Origin: a virus
IMG/VR virus record: IMGVR_UViG_3300025133_000549
Location: 1 to 25,527 of that record
Direction: 5' to 3' (one strand)
Length of the DNA stretch: 25,527 nt
In this document: positions 222 through 22,102 of the stretch, piece by piece
Layout of the letters: each line of letters starts with the position of its first letter
Position numbering within the stretch: position 1 is the stretch's first letter
Notes under the pieces: model-generated
What the model was told of the DNA's origin: nothing
The model's database searches: none
The model's input: only the letters and a program-made list of their open reading frames with translations
Position numbers and translations under genes: made by a program

Positions 222-2315
222 ATGGCAAATAGTTTAATTTCTCCTGGATCATTAACAAGGGAAAAAGATTCAACTCAAATAACATCCCCCCCAGCTAAAG
301 TTGGGGCAGCTGTTGTTGGTCCTACTGTAAAAGGTAAACCTAATATCCCAACTTTAGTTACAAGCTATAGCGAGTATGTAGCTAAATTTGGAAATAAATT
401 TACTAGTGGATCAGGAGCAGGGGCAGTAGAATCTACATATTTAACTTCTATATCGGCTCAAAATTATTTTGCAAACGGAGGAAATTCATTATTAGTAACA
501 AGGATAGTTTCAAGATCTACTGATTTCAGTGCAGCTACTTCCTCAATTATAAATTCTAATGAGGGGTTAACAACGGCCTCACTTACTCTTGATATAACCC
601 CCTTTCATAATGAAGCTGCATCTGTTGGGTCATCTTCATTTAGTATAGAAGGAATTACATTTACATTAACTGGCAGTAGTGGAGGAACTAATACATCAAC
701 TATAATATATTTTCCTTCTGCATCCTCTGCGGCTGTCTCAGCACAATCATCATCTGCCGTTTTTGGGGTTAGTTCATCTATTGCTCCTTATAGTTCATCC
801 CTCCAAAACATATCATCCAGTGTATCCTCAACAAATATTACATACCATGCAATAAATGCTGGAATAGGAGGTAATTCATTTTCCCTAGTATCAGGTAGTG
901 TAACAACTTCTTTTTCAGGAGGTACTAATAAAAATGCATTTATATTAGAAACCTTGAGTCATGGTAATATTTTAAATAGTACAGGACCTACTGGTTCAAG
1001 TGGCACATTGTTAAGTGGTTCAAGGGATAACTTTAGATGGGAGATTGTAAATCCAAATTCCTCCTCAGGAATATTCAATCTCCTAATTAGAAGAGGGGAT
1101 GATAAACCAAACTCTCCTACAATATTAGAAGAATTCCGAAACCTATCATTAGATCCTAAAGCAAGTAATTATATTACCAAGATAATTGGAGATCAGGTTC
1201 AAGAAGTAAGAGGATCAGGGGTAGATGTATATCTCCAACCCACAGGATCATATCTTAATTCTTCAAAATATATAAGAATAAAATCTGTAAACCAGAACAC
1301 ACCTGATTATTTTGATAATAATGGTTCAGCAAGAGATATCTATACTGCATCTATACCCATGGCTTCTTCAGGTACTTTTGGTGATGCAACAGGGGATATA
1401 TATGTTGGGGCTAATACTCTTTATAACAATATAAATTCCTCTACCAAAACCCAAGGATTGACATTTGATAGTTATACTACAGCTATTAATTTATTATCAA
1501 ATAAAGATGAATTCAAATATAATATAATCACCACTCCTGGATTAATTTATCAAGGAGGGTTACAAACACCCTTAAATACCTTAATAGATAATACTGAGGA
1601 TAGAGGGGATGCTATTATTGTATTGGATCTTGAAGCCTATAGTTCTACCATTACCAATGCCATTGGTACTGCCACTAATATAGATTCTTCATATGTTGCT
1701 GCTTACTGGCCCTGGGTTCAAATTACAGAACCAGATACAGGTCAATTGGTATGGATTCCCTCCTCTACATTAGTTCCAGGAACCTATATGAATAATGATA
1801 TAGTTGGGGAACCTTGGTTTGCAGCTGCCGGGGTTAAACGTGGAGGGTTGGATAGGGTTCGTCAAGCAGAACGTAAATTAAATAATACTGATAGAGATAC
1901 ATTGTATGTTGGTAAAATTAATTCTATAGCTACCCTCCCAAAAAGAGGGGTTTTATTATTTGGTAATAAAACATTACAAACCGCGAAATCATCCCTAGAT
2001 AGGGTTAATGTTAGAAGATTACTTATTGAATTAAAAAACTACATCACCCAAGTTGCAGATAACTTGGTATTTGAACAAAACACTACGGCAACAAGAAATA
2101 CCTTTTTATCAACTATTAATCCTTATCTAGAATCAGTTCAACAAAGACAAGGATTGTATGCCTTCAGAGTGGTGATGGATGGTTCAAATAACACAAATGA
2201 TGTGATTGACCGGAATGAATTAATAGGGGCTATCCATGTTCAACCAACAAGAACTGCTGAATTCATTTATTTGGATTTCAACATATTACCAACAGGGGCC
2301 ACTTTTCCCTCATAA
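222..2315 (+). CDS. 18: Tail sheath protein (T4 gp18-like), second copy
   Basis: This 697-aa protein forms the contractile sheath around the tail tube. The N-terminus (LISPGSLTREKD, then VGAAVVGPTVKGKPNIPTLV and a YVAKFG segment) is typical of phage sheath proteins. The C-terminal third has the family pattern NVRRLLIELKNYI, FEQNTTATRN, then IDRNELIGAIHVQPTRTAEF ending near YLDFNI. Residues about 125-260 form a Ser/Gly/Thr-rich stretch, probably an inserted surface domain, which is why the protein is longer than many sheaths. The start ATG at 222 follows an A-rich leader 9 nt after the previous sheath stop, so the two sheath genes are probably co-transcribed. The tail tube gene follows after 64 nt. 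Confidence 0.95.
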   Translation: MANSLISPGSLTREKDSTQITSPPAKVGAAVVGPTVKGKPNIPTLVTSYSEYVAKFGNKFTSGSGAGAVESTYLTSISAQNYFANGGNSLLVTRIVSRSTDFSAATSSIINSNEGLTTASLTLDITPFHNEAASVGSSSFSIEGITFTLTGSSGGTNTSTIIYFPSASSAAVSAQSSSAVFGVSSSIAPYSSSLQNISSSVSSTNITYHAINAGIGGNSFSLVSGSVTTSFSGGTNKNAFILETLSHGNILNSTGPTGSSGTLLSGSRDNFRWEIVNPNSSSGIFNLLIRRGDDKPNSPTILEEFRNLSLDPKASNYITKIIGDQVQEVRGSGVDVYLQPTGSYLNSSKYIRIKSVNQNTPDYFDNNGSARDIYTASIPMASSGTFGDATGDIYVGANTLYNNINSSTKTQGLTFDSYTTAINLLSNKDEFKYNIITTPGLIYQGGLQTPLNTLIDNTEDRGDAIIVLDLEAYSSTITNAIGTATNIDSSYVAAYWPWVQITEPDTGQLVWIPSSTLVPGTYMNNDIVGEPWFAAAGVKRGGLDRVRQAERKLNNTDRDTLYVGKINSIATLPKRGVLLFGNKTLQTAKSSLDRVNVRRLLIELKNYITQVADNLVFEQNTTATRNTFLSTINPYLESVQQRQGLYAFRVVMDGSNNTNDVIDRNELIGAIHVQPTRTAEFIYLDFNILPTGATFPS
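2104..2315 (+). repeat. Second copy of duplicated sheath 3' end
   Basis: These bases align without gaps to 1-212, including the stop codon. The longest identical run is 36 nt (15-50 against 2118-2153), with further identical runs around 25 and 30 nt. The first copy probably extends left of the window, so this is the visible part of a tandem gene duplication. Confidence 0.9.
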
Positions 2316-2379: not shown

Positions 2380-2868
2380 ATGCCTTTATTAGATCCTAAC
2401 GAAATATTTTTTACCGCCTTTGAGCCAAAACAAGCCAATAGGTTTGTTTGTTATATTGATGGATTTGCTTCTTATTCTATTAAAGGGATAGGTGCAATTT
2501 CGGTTACACAGGGTTCAATAGCCCTTAACCATATTAATATCCAAAGATTTGTAAAAGGTAAAACTAAATGGAATACAGTCCAATTTACATTATTTGATCC
2601 AATAACACCATCAGGTGCACAATCTATGATGGAATGGGTTAGACTTCACCATGAATCCGTAACAGGTAGAGATGGATATTCTGATTTTTATAAAAAAGAT
2701 TTAACATTCAATGTTATTGGACCTCCTGGTGATGTAGTATCTGAATGGATTATTAAAGGTGCTTTAATTACAGATGCTACATTCGGGGATTATAATTGGG
2801 ATACAGAGGATTCAGCTGTTGAAATCCAAATGACAGTACAGCCTGATTATTGTATTTTAAATTATTAA
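2380..2868 (+). CDS. 19: Tail tube protein (T4 gp19-like)
   Basis: This 162-aa protein is the main subunit of the inner tail tube. Its length fits T4 gp19 (163 aa). Typical features are the opening DPNEIFFTAFEPKQANRF, the central NINIQRFVKGKTKWNTV-like strand, the helix QSMMEWVRLHHE, the YKKDLTF strand and the tail WIIKGALITDATFGDYNW, all characteristic of the phage T4-gp19/tail tube family. It lies directly after the sheath gene, the usual order in T4-like genomes. The leader is A-rich (ATAAAAATAGATAAAT) without a Shine-Dalgarno sequence, and a candidate late promoter lies at 2347-2360. Confidence 0.93.
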   Translation: MPLLDPNEIFFTAFEPKQANRFVCYIDGFASYSIKGIGAISVTQGSIALNHINIQRFVKGKTKWNTVQFTLFDPITPSGAQSMMEWVRLHHESVTGRDGYSDFYKKDLTFNVIGPPGDVVSEWIIKGALITDATFGDYNWDTEDSAVEIQMTVQPDYCILNY

Positions 2869-2905: not shown

Positions 2906-3151
2906 ATGAAAAAAAGTGAATTAAGAAAACTCATAAGGGAAGAAATTGACTATCAAACTCTAGAGAATTTAGGGGATCAAATTAGATCTCTAATAGATGA
3001 TAAACCCTTTGATTCTCAACTGGCATATAAGATTTCAAGAATTTTAAACATACCACTAGAACAAGCTGAAAGAATTCGTGATGAAGTTTTAGTAAATGAT
3101 GAGGGTGATATAGAATATATCTTAAATATATATTTAAATAGAGGTTCATAA
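2906..3151 (+). CDS. Small protein with MKKSELR module, independent insert
   Basis: This 81-aa acidic protein has no function I can assign. It begins with MKKSELRKLIREEI, an amphipathic module that recurs at the start of the 93-aa protein at 21821 and inside the protein at 21352. The rest is predicted helical (SRILNIPLEQAERIRDEV). It has its own Bacteroidetes-type promoter immediately upstream and a rho-independent terminator 35 nt downstream, so it is a separate transcription unit placed between tail genes, like the 'morons' of lambdoid phages. It is therefore probably expressed at a different time from the flanking late genes. The ATG at 2906 is the only methionine in the frame. Confidence 0.8.
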   Translation: MKKSELRKLIREEIDYQTLENLGDQIRSLIDDKPFDSQLAYKISRILNIPLEQAERIRDEVLVNDEGDIEYILNIYLNRGS

Positions 3152-3185
3152 GAACAGTGCTCAGAGGGGAAACTTTATATATAGA

Positions 3186-3219
3186 AAGGGATTGATTTTT
3201 TAATCAGTCCTTTTTTTTT
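3186..3219 (+). terminator. Rho-independent terminator
   Basis: A 12-bp stem (3186-3197 with 3202-3213, including two G-T wobbles) with a TTTT loop is followed by a run of nine T. It ends the transcription unit of the 81-aa gene and is the only clear intrinsic terminator in the window. Confidence 0.85.
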
Positions 3220-3280: not shown

Positions 3281-4024
3281 ATGTCTGAAACCAAATTCAA
3301 ATTCCCAACAGAAGAAGTCGATTTACCCTCTAAAGGATTATTATATCCGGAGGGTCATCCATTAAAATCTGGTAAGATTGAAATGAAATATATGACTGCT
3401 AGGGAAGAGGATATTCTTACCAACCAAAATTTTATAAGTAGGGGGGTTGTATTAGATAAACTTTTAGAGGCATTAATTGTTACTAAAGTTAGTTTAAAAG
3501 ATCTTTTAATAGGAGATAAAAATGCGGTTTTAATTTCTTCTCGTATTTTAGGGTATGGTAAAGATTACAAAATTTCTTATAATGGTACTGATCATATTGT
3601 AGATTTAACTGAATTAAAAAATAAAAAATTAGATGAAAAATTATTTGCAGAAGGTATTAATAACTTTGAATATATTCTCCCCCACTCTAAAACAAAAATA
3701 ACATTTAGATTATTAACTGATGGAATTGATAAGCAAATTGAAGAAGAAATTAAAGGAGCTAAAAAAATTAATAAAAACGCCTCCCCTGAGTATTCTACAA
3801 GAATGAAATATTTAATTACATCCGTAGAAGGAGATTCTTCGGGAAAAACCATTAGAGATTTTGTAGATAATTATCTTTTGGCTAGAGATGCAAAAGCCCT
3901 AAGAGATCATGTTATTAAACTCCAACCCGATATAGAATTAAAAACCGAAATAGAAAATGATTTTGGTGAGCTTGAAGAAATAGATATTCCAATTTCTTTA
4001 AATTTTTTTTTCCCTGACTCCTGA
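3281..4024 (+). CDS. T4 gp26-like baseplate hub/tail assembly protein
   Basis: This 247-aa protein resembles the T4 gp26-type baseplate protein family of T4-like phages. Visible family features are the opening FPTEEVDLPSKGLLYP, the block MKYMTAREEDILTNQNFI, the helix VVLDKLLEALIV, SSRILGYGKDY, and the ending IDIPISLNFFFPDS. It lies between tail tube and tape measure genes, which in T4 order corresponds to genes 26-51-(27-28)-29. Its last codons run over a T9 tract (4003-4011). The overlapping frame that opens there continues into a gp51-like sequence, so a frameshifted longer product is possible. The leader AATAAAAACT is A-rich and there is a partial late-motif match (GTTATAACAAATAAA, 3243-3257). 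Confidence 0.75.
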   Translation: MSETKFKFPTEEVDLPSKGLLYPEGHPLKSGKIEMKYMTAREEDILTNQNFISRGVVLDKLLEALIVTKVSLKDLLIGDKNAVLISSRILGYGKDYKISYNGTDHIVDLTELKNKKLDEKLFAEGINNFEYILPHSKTKITFRLLTDGIDKQIEEEIKGAKKINKNASPEYSTRMKYLITSVEGDSSGKTIRDFVDNYLLARDAKALRDHVIKLQPDIELKTEIENDFGELEEIDIPISLNFFFPDS

Positions 4025-4301
4025 GGAAGCTTTAGCATATAGGAGTAATTTATTTTCCCAAATTCATGAAGTAGTTTTTAATGGTAAAGGAGGATATAGT
4101 TGGGAAACTGTATATAATATGCCTATCTGGCTACGAAACTTTACTTTTAATAAACTAAAAGAATATTATGATGCTGAGCAAGCAGCAGCTAACAAAGATC
4201 CTAATAAAATTGATTTAACAAACCCAGATAAATCAACACCCCCACAAAAAAGACCATCACATTCACCTCCTTCATATGTAACCAAGGTGTCAAGAAAGTA
4301 A
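4002..4301 (+). CDS. gp51-like tail/baseplate assembly protein, probably made by frameshift
   Basis: The frame is open from 4002 (TAA at 3999-4001 closes it upstream) to 4301. From about 4014 it reads LTPEEALAYRSNLFSQIHEV, then a GKGGYSWETVYNMPIWLRNF segment, which looks like real protein and is similar to small assembly proteins that follow gp26 in T4-like phages. The first ATG is 4119 and would discard about 35 plausible residues; it has no ribosome binding site near it. The frame is +1 (or -2) relative to the gp26-like gene and the two overlap over the T9 tract. I therefore read it as the downstream part of a frameshift product, with a non-ATG start or a homopolymer length error as alternatives. 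The C-terminus is Pro/Ser/Lys-rich. Confidence 0.6.
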   Translation: MFFSLTPEEALAYRSNLFSQIHEVVFNGKGGYSWETVYNMPIWLRNFTFNKLKEYYDAEQAAANKDPNKIDLTNPDKSTPPQKRPSHSPPSYVTKVSRK

Positions 4302-4334: not shown

Positions 4335-7013
4335 ATGCCCGTTGATCCAAAACAATTTAAAAAAGATCTAGAAGATCTTAATAAACTTTATAGGCAGTTG
4401 GAAAGAAAAGCTCTAAGTGCCAGCGACTTTTCTAAAGGAGCAGAAGGGGCTAAGCAAATGGCTATTTACCTTAGGGAAGCAAAAACAGAAGTTGCTATAT
4501 TAAATACCTCATTTAAAGATACAGCTAATTGGATTGGGGAGATTGCTGAAGAATGGTCAACAGGTTTTGTGAAGCCTCTTAAAGAAGGAACAAAATCCTT
4601 TAGAGTCTTAAGAGGTCTTGCATCTGATTTAGAAGATGATTTACATGGTGTTATTGATTTAGAAAAAAAACAATTATTAAATATAAAAAAGAAAGCTGAA
4701 CAGGAGAAGGAAAACCATAATAGAATAAAGGAAAACCTTGAAAAGAAAAAGAGGGATGGGAAGGAATTAAACACTGAAGAACAATCACTTTTAGCTAATT
4801 TGACTGCTGATGTAAAAGTAACTACGGTCATTATTTCCCAAGCCAAAAAAAGGCTTGAACAAGAAAGAAAGATTGCTAAAACCGCAGGGGTAACAGGAGC
4901 CATATTTAATAGTTTATCATCAACATTAGGAAAAGTAGGAATAGGATCAGAATTTTTTGAAGATGGAAAGAAAAATATAAGAGAAGCAGCTAAAAGTGGA
5001 TCAAAATTAAAGGTAGTAGGGGCTGGTATCTCGTCATTATTTAAGGGAATAGGAGAAGCATTAATGGATCCTGTAGTAATATTTGGTTTACTTACTACAG
5101 CATTTACTTCTTTATTAGCATTAGGTCAAAAATTCGCACAATATACAGCAGATATAGGAAAGGCATTTTTAGGTATGGGAGCAGACTCTAAAACTGTTGC
5201 TGATAATTTAAAGAATATGGCTGCTGGTAGTGAGGGTCTTTACATGAATTTTGAAGAAGCCAAAAAGGCTTTGATTGGGTTAAATAAGGTAGCAGGAACA
5301 AGTGTTGAATTTTCTGAAGCCCAAATAAAAAACTATCAAAAATTAACCCATTTTTTAGGTTTAAGTGAAGAAGCAGCTCAAGGATTATTTAAAACATCAT
5401 TACTTTCTGGAAGTGGTTTTGAAGATGTAGCTTCAGAAATAGGAGGTGTAGTAGCAGGATTAAATCAATCAAATGGTTTATCTCTTAATTTAAATGATGT
5501 TTTAGAAGAAGTATCAAAAGCTTCTTCAACCACAAGATTTAATGTGGGCCAAACATCAAGGGCTTTAGCAGCAGCAGCATTTGAAGCTAAACGTTTAGGA
5601 ATGACTTTAGACCAAATATCTTCAGCAGCAGAAAGCACATTAGATTTTGAAAGTTCTATTGCAAATGAAATTAAAGCTGAATTACTTTTAGGTAAAGATT
5701 TAAACTTAGAGAAATTAAGATACGAGGCATTAACTGGTGATACTAATACACAGGCCAAAGAATTAAATAGACTTCTTGCTGAAAATGTAGAGTCAACAGA
5801 GGGTAATGTTATAAAACAAAAGGCATTAGCTGATTCTTTAGGTATGAGTGTTGAAGATATGCTAAAAGCAAATGACGCACGAATACTACAAAATGAATTA
5901 TCAAAAAGGGGAATCACTGATAGGGTAAAAGCAGAAAAAGCACTTGCTATTTTAAGGTCAAAAGGTTTAACTCAAGAACAAGCTTTAGAAAAATTAGCTA
6001 AAGGAAAGCTTGACGCTATTGTTGAAGAAGGTAAAAAGGCTGAAACATCCATGAGAATGTTAGAAAATGCAAAAGAAACTTTAATGGTATCCATAGCACC
6101 TTTAGCTGATAAAATAGCAAAACTTGTTCAGTCTTTTGCTGAAAGTGGTGCATTAAAAAGTATGTTAAAAACAATAGGTGGAGTACTTAAATGGATTGGG
6201 GAAAATCCTAAAACATTTTTAGGTATTGGAGCTCTTGCAGGGGGTGCTATGTTTGCCGGAAAAGCTTTAGCAGGTAAATTAGGTACTGAAAGGAATCCTA
6301 TGGTAGTAAAATTTGCTGAAAAAGTAATAGGAGGACTTAAAAGTATATTTAAAGGTAAAAAGGGCAAACCCAGTATGATAGCCAAGGGGCTACAAAAATT
6401 GAATCCCATGAATTGGGGTAAAAAAATGGGTAAATCAGGGCTTTATAAAAAGAGTTCTAAAGGAATTATTTCAAAAACACTAGGTAAGGTTAGTAAAAGT
6501 GTAGTACCGAAAGTTGCTGGTAAAAATATTGCAAAAATTGGAGCTAAATTAGGAGCCAAAGCAATGGGAAAATCTTTACTTAAAAGAATACCTGGTCTTG
6601 GAGCATTAGCAGGAGTAGGTTTTGCAATAGATAGAGTAGCTAAAGGAGATATGGTTGGTGCCGCAATGGAATTAGCATCTGGAGGAGCAAGTTTATTAGA
6701 TCTTGTAGCCCCAGGAGCAGGTTTAACAGCAGGATTAGCTATGGATGCAGCAATAGCTGCTAGAGATATACACAAAGCAACATCAGAGGGAGAAGGAATA
6801 GCATCAGATTTTATTTCAAGACCGGGTCAACCCATACAAAAATTTAGAGCTGATGATGTTATAGTGGGGGGTACTAATTTAAATGGGGGGGGTAATAGGG
6901 TTGAACAATTACTTGAAAGATTAGTAGTAGCTGTTGAAAGTGGTGGTGATGTTTATATTGATGGAGCTAAAGCAGGCAGATCATTAGTATTGGCAGCTTC
7001 CCAAATGGGTTAA
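4335..7013 (+). CDS. Tape measure protein (T4 gp29 counterpart)
   Basis: This 892-aa protein is the longest helical protein of the tail block and lies where the tape measure is expected, after the gp26/51 genes. It sets tail length and is extruded from the tube on infection. Residues about 95-190 are strongly charged and coiled-coil-like (EKKKRDGKELNTEEQ). Hydrophobic segments occur near residues 245-265 (PVVIFGLLTTAFTSLLALGQ) and 635-655 (FLGIGALAGGAMFAGKALAG). The middle is helical and Ala/Leu/Lys-rich, followed by a very basic Gly/Lys region (about 660-760). The C-terminus with GGDVYIDGAKAG is common in tape measure proteins. At about 1.5 angstrom per residue the predicted tail would be near 130 nm; this is an estimate. 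Confidence 0.85.
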   Translation: MPVDPKQFKKDLEDLNKLYRQLERKALSASDFSKGAEGAKQMAIYLREAKTEVAILNTSFKDTANWIGEIAEEWSTGFVKPLKEGTKSFRVLRGLASDLEDDLHGVIDLEKKQLLNIKKKAEQEKENHNRIKENLEKKKRDGKELNTEEQSLLANLTADVKVTTVIISQAKKRLEQERKIAKTAGVTGAIFNSLSSTLGKVGIGSEFFEDGKKNIREAAKSGSKLKVVGAGISSLFKGIGEALMDPVVIFGLLTTAFTSLLALGQKFAQYTADIGKAFLGMGADSKTVADNLKNMAAGSEGLYMNFEEAKKALIGLNKVAGTSVEFSEAQIKNYQKLTHFLGLSEEAAQGLFKTSLLSGSGFEDVASEIGGVVAGLNQSNGLSLNLNDVLEEVSKASSTTRFNVGQTSRALAAAAFEAKRLGMTLDQISSAAESTLDFESSIANEIKAELLLGKDLNLEKLRYEALTGDTNTQAKELNRLLAENVESTEGNVIKQKALADSLGMSVEDMLKANDARILQNELSKRGITDRVKAEKALAILRSKGLTQEQALEKLAKGKLDAIVEEGKKAETSMRMLENAKETLMVSIAPLADKIAKLVQSFAESGALKSMLKTIGGVLKWIGENPKTFLGIGALAGGAMFAGKALAGKLGTERNPMVVKFAEKVIGGLKSIFKGKKGKPSMIAKGLQKLNPMNWGKKMGKSGLYKKSSKGIISKTLGKVSKSVVPKVAGKNIAKIGAKLGAKAMGKSLLKRIPGLGALAGVGFAIDRVAKGDMVGAAMELASGGASLLDLVAPGAGLTAGLAMDAAIAARDIHKATSEGEGIASDFISRPGQPIQKFRADDVIVGGTNLNGGGNRVEQLLERLVVAVESGGDVYIDGAKAGRSLVLAASQMG

Positions 7014-19475: not shown

Positions 19476-21329
19476 ATGGATATATCCCAAGAAATCCTAT
19501 CACAAATTACAACTTATAACAAATATGCCAAATATTTACCTTCTATTCAACGAAGAGAAACTTGGGAAGAAATTGTTTTTAGAAATAAAAAAATGAACTC
19601 TGACAATTTTCCTAAATTACAGGAAAAATTAGATTGGGCTTATCAATATGTTTATGAAAAAAAGACTCTTCCATCTATGAGGAGTCTCCAATTCGCTGGA
19701 AAACCAATTGAAATAAATAATGCACGAATATTTAATTGTGCCTATCTACCAATTAATGATTGGAGAGCATTTAATGAAGTAATGTTTTTATTACTTTCAG
19801 GATGTGGGGTAGGATACTCTGTTCAAAATCATCATATAGATAGTTTACCTGAAATTCGTATCCCAACCAAAACTAGAAGATTTTTAGTAGGAGACAGTAT
19901 TGAAGGATGGGCTGATGCTGTTAAAGTATTGATGAAATCTTATTTTGGGATTTCCAATTCAAGGCCCAATTTTGATTTTAGAGATATTAGACCTAAGGGA
20001 GCAGAACTCATTACAGTAGGAGGTAAAGCACCAGGACCAGAACCTTTGAAAGAATGTTTATTCCAAATCCAAAAAATATTAGATAGAAAAGAAAATGGAG
20101 ATCAATTAACCCCATTGGAAGTAAATGATATAATTTGCCATATTGCAGATGCTGTATTATCCGGAGGTATTAGACGAGCAGCTTTAATTTGTTTGTTTGA
20201 TTTGGATGATGAAGAAATGTTAACGTGTAAGTATGGGAATTGGTGGGAATTAAATCCACAAAGGGGAAGAGCAAATAATTCTGCAGTTGCCATTAGATCA
20301 AAAATTACTAAATCAAGATTCTTTGAATTGTGGGGGAAGGTTTGTGGGAGTGGAACAGGTGATCCTGCTGTATATTTCTCAAATGATAAAGATTGGGGTT
20401 GTAATCCCTGTTGTGAAATTGGATTAAAACCCTTCCAATTCTGTAATTTAACAGAAGTAAATGTTTCAAACATTACATCACAAGAGGATCTAAATGAAAG
20501 AGTAAAAGCAGCATCCTTTTTAGGAACATTACAGGCAAGTTATACTAATTTCCATTACTTAAGAGAAATATGGAAAAGAACTACTGAAAAAGATGCACTT
20601 ATTGGTGTGGGAATGACAGGGATAGGAAGTGGAACTATATTAAATTATAATCTTAAAGAAGCAGCTAAGATTGCAGTTGAAATGAATATTTGGACTGCCG
20701 AACAAATAGGAATTAACCCTGCATCACGTGTAACAACTGTTAAACCTTCAGGTACCAGTTCACTTGTATTAGGCACATCTTCAGGTATTCATGCTTGGCA
20801 TAATGATTATTATATTCGAAGAATGAGAATTGGTAAAAATGAACCATTATATCAATACCTATCTATTTTCCATCCTGAATTAGTTGAAGATGATTTCTTC
20901 AAACCCCAAATCCAAGCAATCATATCTGTACCCCAAAAATCACCTTCAGGAGCAATTTACAGAAGTGAAAGTGTAATGGATTTACTTGAAAGAACCAATA
21001 AATTTAATATAGAATGGGTTAAAGCAGGCCATGTAAAAGGGGCTAATACTAATAATGTTTCAACAACAGTATCAGTTAAACCTAATGAATGGGAAGAAGT
21101 TGGTAATTGGATGTGGGAGAATAAAGAAAATTTTAATGGGTTAGCAGTATTTCCATATGATAATGGAACCCATGTACAAGCACCATTTGAGGATATAACT
21201 GAAGAAAAATATGAAGAAATGGTTTCCCATTTACATGCTATTGATTTAACTAAAGTGGTGGAAGAAGGTGATAATACTTCGTTAAGAGAAGAACTTGCAT
21301 GTTTTGGTTCAAGTTGTACTATTACTTGA
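19476..21329 (+). CDS. nrdJ: Class II (B12-dependent) ribonucleoside-triphosphate reductase
   Basis: This 617-aa enzyme makes deoxyribonucleotides using adenosylcobalamin. NPCCEIGL gives Asn310, Cys312 and Glu314, the thiyl-radical triad of monomeric class II reductase (N406/C408/E410 in Lactobacillus leichmannii). Cys323 lies 11 residues after Cys312, the spacing of C419 in that enzyme, and Cys88 (IFNCAYLPI) fits C119. The C-terminal pair Cys609 and Cys614 would be the reducing shuttle. It is shorter than the 739-aa model enzyme. No second subunit or activase is seen. It lies after the replication block with a 64-nt AT-rich gap and probably shares its timing. Confidence 0.92.
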   Translation: MDISQEILSQITTYNKYAKYLPSIQRRETWEEIVFRNKKMNSDNFPKLQEKLDWAYQYVYEKKTLPSMRSLQFAGKPIEINNARIFNCAYLPINDWRAFNEVMFLLLSGCGVGYSVQNHHIDSLPEIRIPTKTRRFLVGDSIEGWADAVKVLMKSYFGISNSRPNFDFRDIRPKGAELITVGGKAPGPEPLKECLFQIQKILDRKENGDQLTPLEVNDIICHIADAVLSGGIRRAALICLFDLDDEEMLTCKYGNWWELNPQRGRANNSAVAIRSKITKSRFFELWGKVCGSGTGDPAVYFSNDKDWGCNPCCEIGLKPFQFCNLTEVNVSNITSQEDLNERVKAASFLGTLQASYTNFHYLREIWKRTTEKDALIGVGMTGIGSGTILNYNLKEAAKIAVEMNIWTAEQIGINPASRVTTVKPSGTSSLVLGTSSGIHAWHNDYYIRRMRIGKNEPLYQYLSIFHPELVEDDFFKPQIQAIISVPQKSPSGAIYRSESVMDLLERTNKFNIEWVKAGHVKGANTNNVSTTVSVKPNEWEEVGNWMWENKENFNGLAVFPYDNGTHVQAPFEDITEEKYEEMVSHLHAIDLTKVVEEGDNTSLREELACFGSSCTIT

Positions 21330-21330
21330 T

Positions 21331-21345
21331 ATATTTATAACAAAA
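21331..21345 (+). promoter_or_regulatory. Candidate late promoter before small-gene/lysis cluster
   Basis: ATATTTATAACAAAA, the shared motif, starts 1 nt after the reductase stop and ends 6 nt before the ATG at 21352, close to the spacing at 4335 and 7037. Confidence 0.5.
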
Positions 21346-21351
21346 TACTCA

Positions 21352-21645
21352 ATGGCCCAATACAAAATTCTAAAATTAGAAGATGGTAAGAAATTAATTG
21401 TTACCTTTGAAGACTTTGCAAAATTGGATAAAGGGCATGATATTAAAGGTATTGATCCTACTACTGGGGGTTCTGTACCTATCCCATATTCTAGTGGGTG
21501 GAAAAAATATTATACTACATCCCAAAACGAAAATATAATGAAAAAAAGCGAATTAAGGGAAATAATTAAGGAAGAAATTCAAAACTTCAAAGAATGCAAG
21601 AAACAGTCCAAGACCATAATGGAAAAATATCTTCCAAACGAGTAA
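21352..21645 (+). CDS. Small protein with internal MKKSELR module
   Basis: The 97-aa reading frame starts MAQYKILKLEDGKKLIVTFE after the late-type motif; I prefer this ATG to the upstream one at 21295, which lies inside the reductase gene. Residues about 63-76 are MKKSELREIIKEEI, the same module that begins the proteins at 2906 and 21821. The ATG of the module is kept at 21538 and could itself start a 35-aa product. The gene thus either carries the module fused to a small N-terminal domain or encodes two nested products. Its end overlaps the next gene by 52 nt. No function is known. Confidence 0.7.
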   Translation: MAQYKILKLEDGKKLIVTFEDFAKLDKGHDIKGIDPTTGGSVPIPYSSGWKKYYTTSQNENIMKKSELREIIKEEIQNFKECKKQSKTIMEKYLPNE

Positions 21646-21824
21646 TAACCTTTATTAGCTTTTTTCTAATAGTGATGGGGTATGTTGGAAATATGTTTTG
21701 GGGCCTTACAGTAGAAGAATTTATGTATGATGCCCTTTCCTATATTACTATTGGAGGTATATTTGGTGTGGCTGCTGAGAAATTTACAAAATCTACAACA
21801 ATAAATAGAAGAGGAACAAAATGA
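21594..21824 (+). CDS. Probable holin, two membrane segments
   Basis: This 76-aa protein has two hydrophobic segments, about residues 17-38 (VITFISFFLIVMGYVGNMFW) and 44-62 (YDALSYITIGGIFGVA), a short polar N-terminus and a basic C-terminus (NRRGTK). This is the layout of small phage holins, which make holes in the inner membrane at lysis. The only usable ATG lies 51 nt inside the previous gene in another frame. The stop shares bases with the next start (ATGA). Holin is inferred from topology, size and the late-type motif of the cluster; a membrane protein of other function is possible. No separate free endolysin is seen nearby. Confidence 0.6.
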   Translation: MQETVQDHNGKISSKRVITFISFFLIVMGYVGNMFWGLTVEEFMYDALSYITIGGIFGVAAEKFTKSTTINRRGTK

Positions 21825-22102
21825 AAAAATCACAATTAAGACAATTAATAAGAGAAGAATTACAAAATGAAGGTTTGTTTGGTAATTCATCTGAAAAAGA
21901 AAATAAAAGAATACAAAAAGCTCTAGATAGATGGGTTACTTATTGTATGGATGAAGGGGATAGTGAAGCAGATATCCTAAGTGTAGGACAAGAATATCTC
22001 CAAGATTCTATTGATGTTTATTTAGGAGGAAAAATTGATGATAATGAATTAGAAGATAAATGGAATAAATATGTAGAAGATAACCCTGATTTCCCTAATT
22101 AA
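21821..22102 (+). CDS. Small acidic protein with MKKSQLR module
   Basis: This 93-aa acidic protein begins MKKSQLRQLIREELQNE, the third copy of the module seen at 2906 and 21538. The remainder is helical and acidic (KALDRWVTYCMDEGDSEAD, then EDKWNKYVEDN). It overlaps the holin gene by 4 nt and the next membrane protein gene by one base (TAATG), so all three are coupled. The function is unknown; the shared N-terminus suggests a common targeting or assembly signal. Confidence 0.8.
   Translation: MKKSQLRQLIREELQNEGLFGNSSEKENKRIQKALDRWVTYCMDEGDSEADILSVGQEYLQDSIDVYLGGKIDDNELEDKWNKYVEDNPDFPN

Follow-up and report, generated by a model that had tools for sequence, protein, structure and literature searches.

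Tail assembly chaperones produced by ribosomal frameshifting are known with -1, -2 or +1 shifts in different phages (PMC5009743). In phage lambda, the short form gpG and the form gpGT, which carries a frameshifted C-terminal extension, are encoded before the tape measure gene and arise by a -1 shift (PMC5009743). Vandenendeviridae were reported to have T-run sites for -1 shifts (PMC12846349); in that family and in Andersonviridae (phage Adele), the shift occurs at GTTTTT at the end of the short form (TAC-N), and the extension had earlier been annotated as a separate ORF or missed (PMC12846349). For T4, gp26 and gp51 have already been published as chaperones (Vladimirov, Gautam and Davidson 2022, cited in PMC10885494), and in the part of the PRFect paper that refers to that work, some T4-like phages are said to have a short gene and a longer fused gene and to use no frameshifting (PMC10885494). 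In T4 the two are separate, divergently oriented genes on opposite strands. A published title on the chaperones of T4-like phages reportedly argues for a non-frameshifting mechanism.

The DNA analysed here, called the window, is the stretch of 25,527 bases at positions 1-25,527 of virus record IMGVR_UViG_3300025133_000549. One of its genes, which is gp26-like, very probably gives rise, through a programmed +1 frameshift of the ribosome, to both tail assembly chaperones of a phage that is T4-like and contractile-tailed. This arrangement of one gene with a +1 shift differs from the two-gene arrangement of T4. As in lambda, a short form and a frameshifted C-terminal extension are encoded before the tape measure gene, but the shift is +1 rather than -1, and sequence similarity to the lambda and HK97 proteins was not found. 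The T-rich site at the end of TAC-N, with an extension overlooked or annotated separately, is also shared with Vandenendeviridae and Andersonviridae, although the shift there is -1. The features of the locus are listed in Table 1.

Table 1. Features of the chaperone locus and neighbouring tail genes in the window
Feature	Position	Strand	Basis
Tail sheath gene	222-2315	+	phrog_23, E 3.4e-66
Tail tube gene (gp19-like), upstream of the gp26-like gene	2380-2868	+	phrog_4542, E 4.4e-22
gp26-like gene, most likely the short tail assembly chaperone (TAC-N), 247 aa	3281-4024	+	ORF; phrog_150, E 5.7e-8; fold matches
T9 tract, proposed slip site, AAT TTT TTT TTC CCT	4003-4011	+	Site kept in 211 distinct +1 junctions
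+1-frame ORF, putative C-terminal extension (TAC-C domain)	4002-4301	+	Alignment across the junction with the C-terminus of T4 gp51
Proposed joined product TAC-NC, 339 aa, ...ISLNFF/SLTPEEALAY...	3281-4301	+	Profile alignment, probability 96-98%
Dual-coded conserved stretch 3' of the slip site, CCCTGACTCCT; consensus GGCCTGACGCC	4012-4022	+	Column conservation 0.85-1.0 at +7 to +14
Tape measure gene, downstream	4335-7013	+	29% identity, E 4e-38, to annotated tape measure of immuto

The genes on the plus strand follow the order sheath, tube, small ORF, gp26, extension and tape measure. The location between tail tube and tape measure, which an earlier note on this DNA had pointed out, was confirmed, and the gp26-like gene holds the same position in Flavobacterium phage immuto. 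The gp26-like ORF ends in IPISLNFFFPDS, with the stop TGA at 4022-4024, and its 3' end reads AAT TTT TTT TTC CCT GAC TCC TGA, the T9 tract included. The second frame, offset by +1 (equivalent to -2), has no stop from 4002 to 4298 and closes with TAA at 4299-4301; the protein read from it begins IFFSLTPEEALAYRSNLFSQIHEVVFNGKGGYSWETVYNMPIWLR. Its first ATG lies at 4119, within the conserved motif YNMPIWLR, and no ATG, GTG or TTG precedes the conserved domain in the window. The only near-start codons before 4119 are ATT at 4002 and CTG at 4014, and no Shine-Dalgarno (SD) sequence was seen ahead of either. The stretch downstream of the tract is read in both frames, as W/F-P-D in frame 0 and as G/S-L-T-P in frame +1. 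On re-reading the window, the T9 tract, the overlapping frame without an ATG, and the coordinates and frames given by the earlier note were all correct. Only two runs of at least seven T occur on the plus strand, the slip tract and an intergenic run at 3211-3219; the latter belongs to a possible terminator at 3160-3219, between the small ORF at 2906 and gp26. A single gp26 copy was found in the window; as the record is fragmentary, another copy may lie outside it. Three small ORFs (2906-3151, 21295-21645 and 21821-22102) share a repeated motif in the near-identical stretches MKKSELRKLIREEI, MKKSELREIIKEEI and MKKSQLRQLIREEL.

Relatives were gathered by searching with the second-frame protein, and came from viral_contigs, two isolates (phage immuto and Microcystis phage Mel-JY01) and two genome-collection contigs, one of them labelled as a Flavobacteriaceae MAG. 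Distinct junctions numbered 211 in the +1 phase and seven in the -1 phase; the first 143 of the 211 span 66 gp26 clusters at 80% identity. Since overlap, offset and site recur in all 211 distinct +1 junctions, the overlap is more than chance, and the recoding that had been proposed at this junction is thereby supported by conservation across hundreds of phages. The consensus of the +1 site is AAC TTT TTT TGG CCT GAC. TTT TTT TGG is found at 136 junctions, TTT CTT TGG at 39 and TTC TTT TGG at 15; the type of the window, TTT TTT TTC, occurs at 14, TTT TTT TAY at four, TTT CTA T.. at two and TTT CTT TAC at one. Among 46 representatives, chosen by clustering gp26 at 75% identity, conservation of the third codon position in frame 0 was 0.95 across the site versus 0.49 in the 43 bases upstream. 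A run of seven T is the norm in the +1 relatives and T9 is specific to a clade; the same offset is kept across T7, T8, T9 and interrupted runs. Comparison with related phages thus bore out the overlap and the offset, but not the T9 itself, as conserved features. Three outlier loci with the same site (L076, L153 and L495) were set aside, since an indel or truncation outside the site is likely in each.

No conserved RNA structure was obtained with RNAalifold, and mean fold z-scores were -0.7 to -0.9, alike upstream and downstream of the site. In the window, TGG is used 12 times and TTC 10 times per 1000 codons. The A-site codons of UUU UGG and UUU UUC are not obviously hungry, which, like the missing RNA structure, counts against the +1 reading.

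In two further phages a +1 open frame was also observed at the end of gp26. In Streptococcus phage vB_SagM-GXN1 (L084), where gp26 ends near 4727, it follows GAA TTC TTT CGT CCC, and UUU_CGU_C resembles the +1 site of influenza A PA-X; in Listeria phage LIS04 (L085) it lies at the gp26 stop.

The earlier note had left the shift as +1 or -2. The phase holds, and the variant sites bear on the direction. A scan for the TTC pattern gave 16 loci with gp26 homologues (32-55% identity), all in the +1 phase, with sites AAC, AAT, AGT or ACA followed by TTC TTT TGG. The scan overturned the expectation of an invariant TTT as the first Phe codon, and slippage at either codon of the pair was adopted instead. 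A +1-slippable codon is present at every site, whether TTT TTT T, TTT CTT T, TTT CTA T or TTC TTT T. At the 15 TTC-TTT-TGG junctions only a run of four T remains, and UUU_U would pair again without mismatch after a +1 slip. TTT-CTT sites could slip by +1 at UUU_C or at CUU_U, the codon of RF2, and TTT-CTA sites, in which the T run is broken, at UUU_C only; the slipping codon may therefore vary among lineages. Programmed -2 frameshifting of the Mu type, two bases back on the T run with one extra Phe, would lead to an identical final frame; at most sites the T7-T9 runs would let UUU re-pair two bases back, and there is precedent in phage Mu (PMC5009743). Unlike what a Mu-type -2 shift requires, however, re-pairing two bases upstream fails in some members: in TTC-TTT-TGG it would place tRNA-Phe on UCU, and in TTT-CTA it would place tRNA-Leu on UUC with mismatches, though in both a good +1 partner is kept. 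Because a +1 shift fits every site and a -2 shift does not, +1 is preferred, and on these variants the -2 shift appears very unlikely.

The window's T9 is near the length at which transcriptional slippage becomes efficient. RNA polymerase slipping on the run would yield mRNAs lacking one base or carrying two extra, and the clade of the window has no GGAGG element (described below). Relatives with the same offset nevertheless have T7, TTTCTTT or TTCTTTT, which are too short or broken, and since the variants TTT-CTT-TGG, TTT-CTA-TGG and TTC-TTT-TGG break the T run, slippage of this kind is ruled out as the general mechanism. We regard it as quite improbable for the locus, and it could contribute to recoding only in T8-T9 clades such as that of the window. 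The second frame might also be a separate gene with its own start, either at a codon other than AUG or through coupling to the gp26 stop: relatives in the -1 phase are annotated in this way (S-PM2 gp51 from an ATG just past the gp26 stop), ATG, GTG or TTG is found in the second frame of some relatives, though at no conserved place, and an open ATG, GTG or TTG in the +1 frame follows the element in 50 of the 119 GGAGG-positive junctions. In the window, however, the frame opens only at 4002 and has no such codon before the conserved domain, and a separate gene would leave the strongly conserved dual-coded site unexplained. In 53 of 119 junctions a +1-frame stop separates the element from the site, and for these initiation in the second frame after GGAGG was rejected. 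Because of these stops, and because in 60 of 150 junctions the second frame has no ATG, GTG or TTG ahead of the conserved domain, we give separate initiation only a slim chance. T runs are generally error-prone, and a sequencing or assembly error could have split one continuous frame; yet the offset recurs in many separate assemblies as well as in the isolate genomes immuto and Mel-JY01, and as T7, T8, T9 and interrupted runs all keep it, such an error is excluded for practical purposes. Programmed +1 ribosomal frameshifting remains our preferred reading.

In the +1 family, GGAGG, GGAG or GAGG precedes the slip codon, in most cases by 26-29 nt (for example in L001, the immuto record, and L043). 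Among 192 distinct junctions whose T run is broken or at most seven long, 173 have the element, against a background of 9% for windows of 30 nt taken from these genes. With T runs of at least eight it occurs in 4 of 23 junctions; few independent lineages, perhaps three, lie behind this contrast. It is absent from the window, a further point against the +1 reading there. Glu codons at the element are GAG in 71% of cases versus 16% elsewhere in gp26, and we conclude from this enrichment that its nucleotides are selected. The spacing of 26-29 nt exceeds that of any SD-type stimulator known to us. In the window, 2 of 24 gene starts have GGAG, GAGG or AGGA in the 20 nt before them, as would fit a Bacteroidota host; the anti-SD of Bacteroidota ribosomes is usually hidden. 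Tentatively, the distal GGAGG might stimulate the +1 shift in phages that barely use SD sequences, and lineages with at least eight T might have dropped it, one of them reversing to -1; we hold this to be possible but rather doubtful. If true, GGAGG would represent a novel type of recoding stimulator, with a possible link to the ribosomes of Bacteroidota. Bacterial RF2 offers a comparison: the 39 TTT CTT TGG junctions have the same P-site codon and shift (CUU_U), and their CUU_UGG_C resembles the CUU_UGA_C of RF2, but the A site here holds a sense codon rather than a stop, and GGAGG lies far upstream. The stimulator of RF2 lies about 3 nt upstream.

That gp26 and gp51 form the chaperone pair, as had been suggested from the locus, agrees with the protein comparisons. 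The gp26 proteins of immuto (E 8e-9) and Mel-JY01 (E 9e-12) match phrog_150, as does that of the window, and this PHROG holds both T4 gp26 and T4 gp51; the window gp26 did not reach the Pfam family T4_baseplate. T4 gp51 also matches phrog_634, a short C-terminal domain that adjoins gp26 in cyanophages and is annotated there as a separate gp51. In profile alignment the joined +1 family is colinear across the junction with T4 gp51 and the joined cyanophage proteins; the tail domain alone reached a probability of only 47-58%. The joined-family profile gave no match to the single T4 gp51 sequence. The L083 tail domain, used as a search query, yielded no matches. The alignment of the joined product with T4 gp51 extends over the whole length, which makes the second frame the gp51 C-terminal domain rather than a gp51 of its own; calling it gp51-like was thus right for the C-terminal part only, the equivalent of T4 gp51 being the joined product. 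No convincing sequence-level relative in the PDB was found for gp26 or T4 gp51. The AlphaFold2 model of the window gp26 (short form only, pLDDT 90) had as its best PDB matches, at modest Z-scores, YqbN (3klu, Z 6.1), a PBSX-type phage protein, followed by the HK97 tail assembly chaperone (2ob9, Z 4.9). In BFVD the model matched T4-like baseplate hub proteins. It is most likely that gp26 is the short tail chaperone and the joined product the long one.

The seven distinct -1 junctions read GGT TTT TTT TGG and AAT TTT TTC TGG, and in all of them a T stands ahead of the first Phe codon, so that the classical heptamer T TTT TTY is formed. In the gp26 tree, whose deep branches are long and their order untrustworthy, the -1 group forms one clade (97/85) within a group supported at 100/99 that it shares with +1 phages. 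The -1 clade is nested among +1 phages, and therefore +1 was replaced by -1. The C-terminal gp51 domain is also in the -1 phase, with T TTT TTY directly before the gp26 stop, in six T4-like isolates: S-PM2 (L270), P-SSM2 (L260), Syn9 (L259), HTVC008M (L272), phiM12 (L263) and KVP40 (L271). GGAGGG or GAGGG lies about 9-10 nt upstream of the site in S-PM2, P-SSM2 and HTVC008M. Kyanoviridae, HTVC008M, KVP40 and phiM12 thus resemble the window in that their gp26 is homologous and the C-terminal domain is encoded in a different frame right at the gp26 stop, but differ in the phase and heptamer, and their gp26 and gp51 are annotated as separate genes where checked.

The conserved overlap, offset and slip site, the lack of independent starts in the window, the homology and the fold lead us to infer the following course, including the slippage itself, its efficiency, the exact P-site codon and chaperone action in the window phage. 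Most ribosomes would end at the gp26 stop and release the short form. In a minority, with peptidyl-tRNA on UUU (or CUU) and the next codon UGG, or UUC or UAY, in the A site, the ribosome would move one base forward onto UUU or UUC and enter the +1 frame; on the T9 of the window, peptidyl-tRNA-Phe is proposed to slip from UUU to UUU. Reading on would add about 95 residues, giving the long form (TAC-NC). If the two forms act as lambda G and GT do, the tape measure protein would be coated by the short form, and tail tube subunits would be brought in by the extra domain.

As far as our literature search reached, the +1 recoding in this T4-like branch, a shift that changed direction among homologues of a single family, and the GGAGG lying far upstream are new, with possible overlap with Vladimirov et al. 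2022. Public annotations overlook the extension: in the immuto record (6232-6342) it appears merely as a 36-aa hypothetical protein from an internal ATG, and the fusion is missed. The window phage, a marine one, and hundreds of its relatives appear to make two forms of a tail-building helper from one gene. A large branch of T4-like phages has a conserved +1 site, cyanophage-type relatives have a -1 site, and one clade changed from +1 to -1 at the same spot. Together, the +1, -1 and two-gene relatives form a natural series for how the ribosome chooses the direction of a shift, and for how recoding arises, changes direction or gives way to gene duplication.
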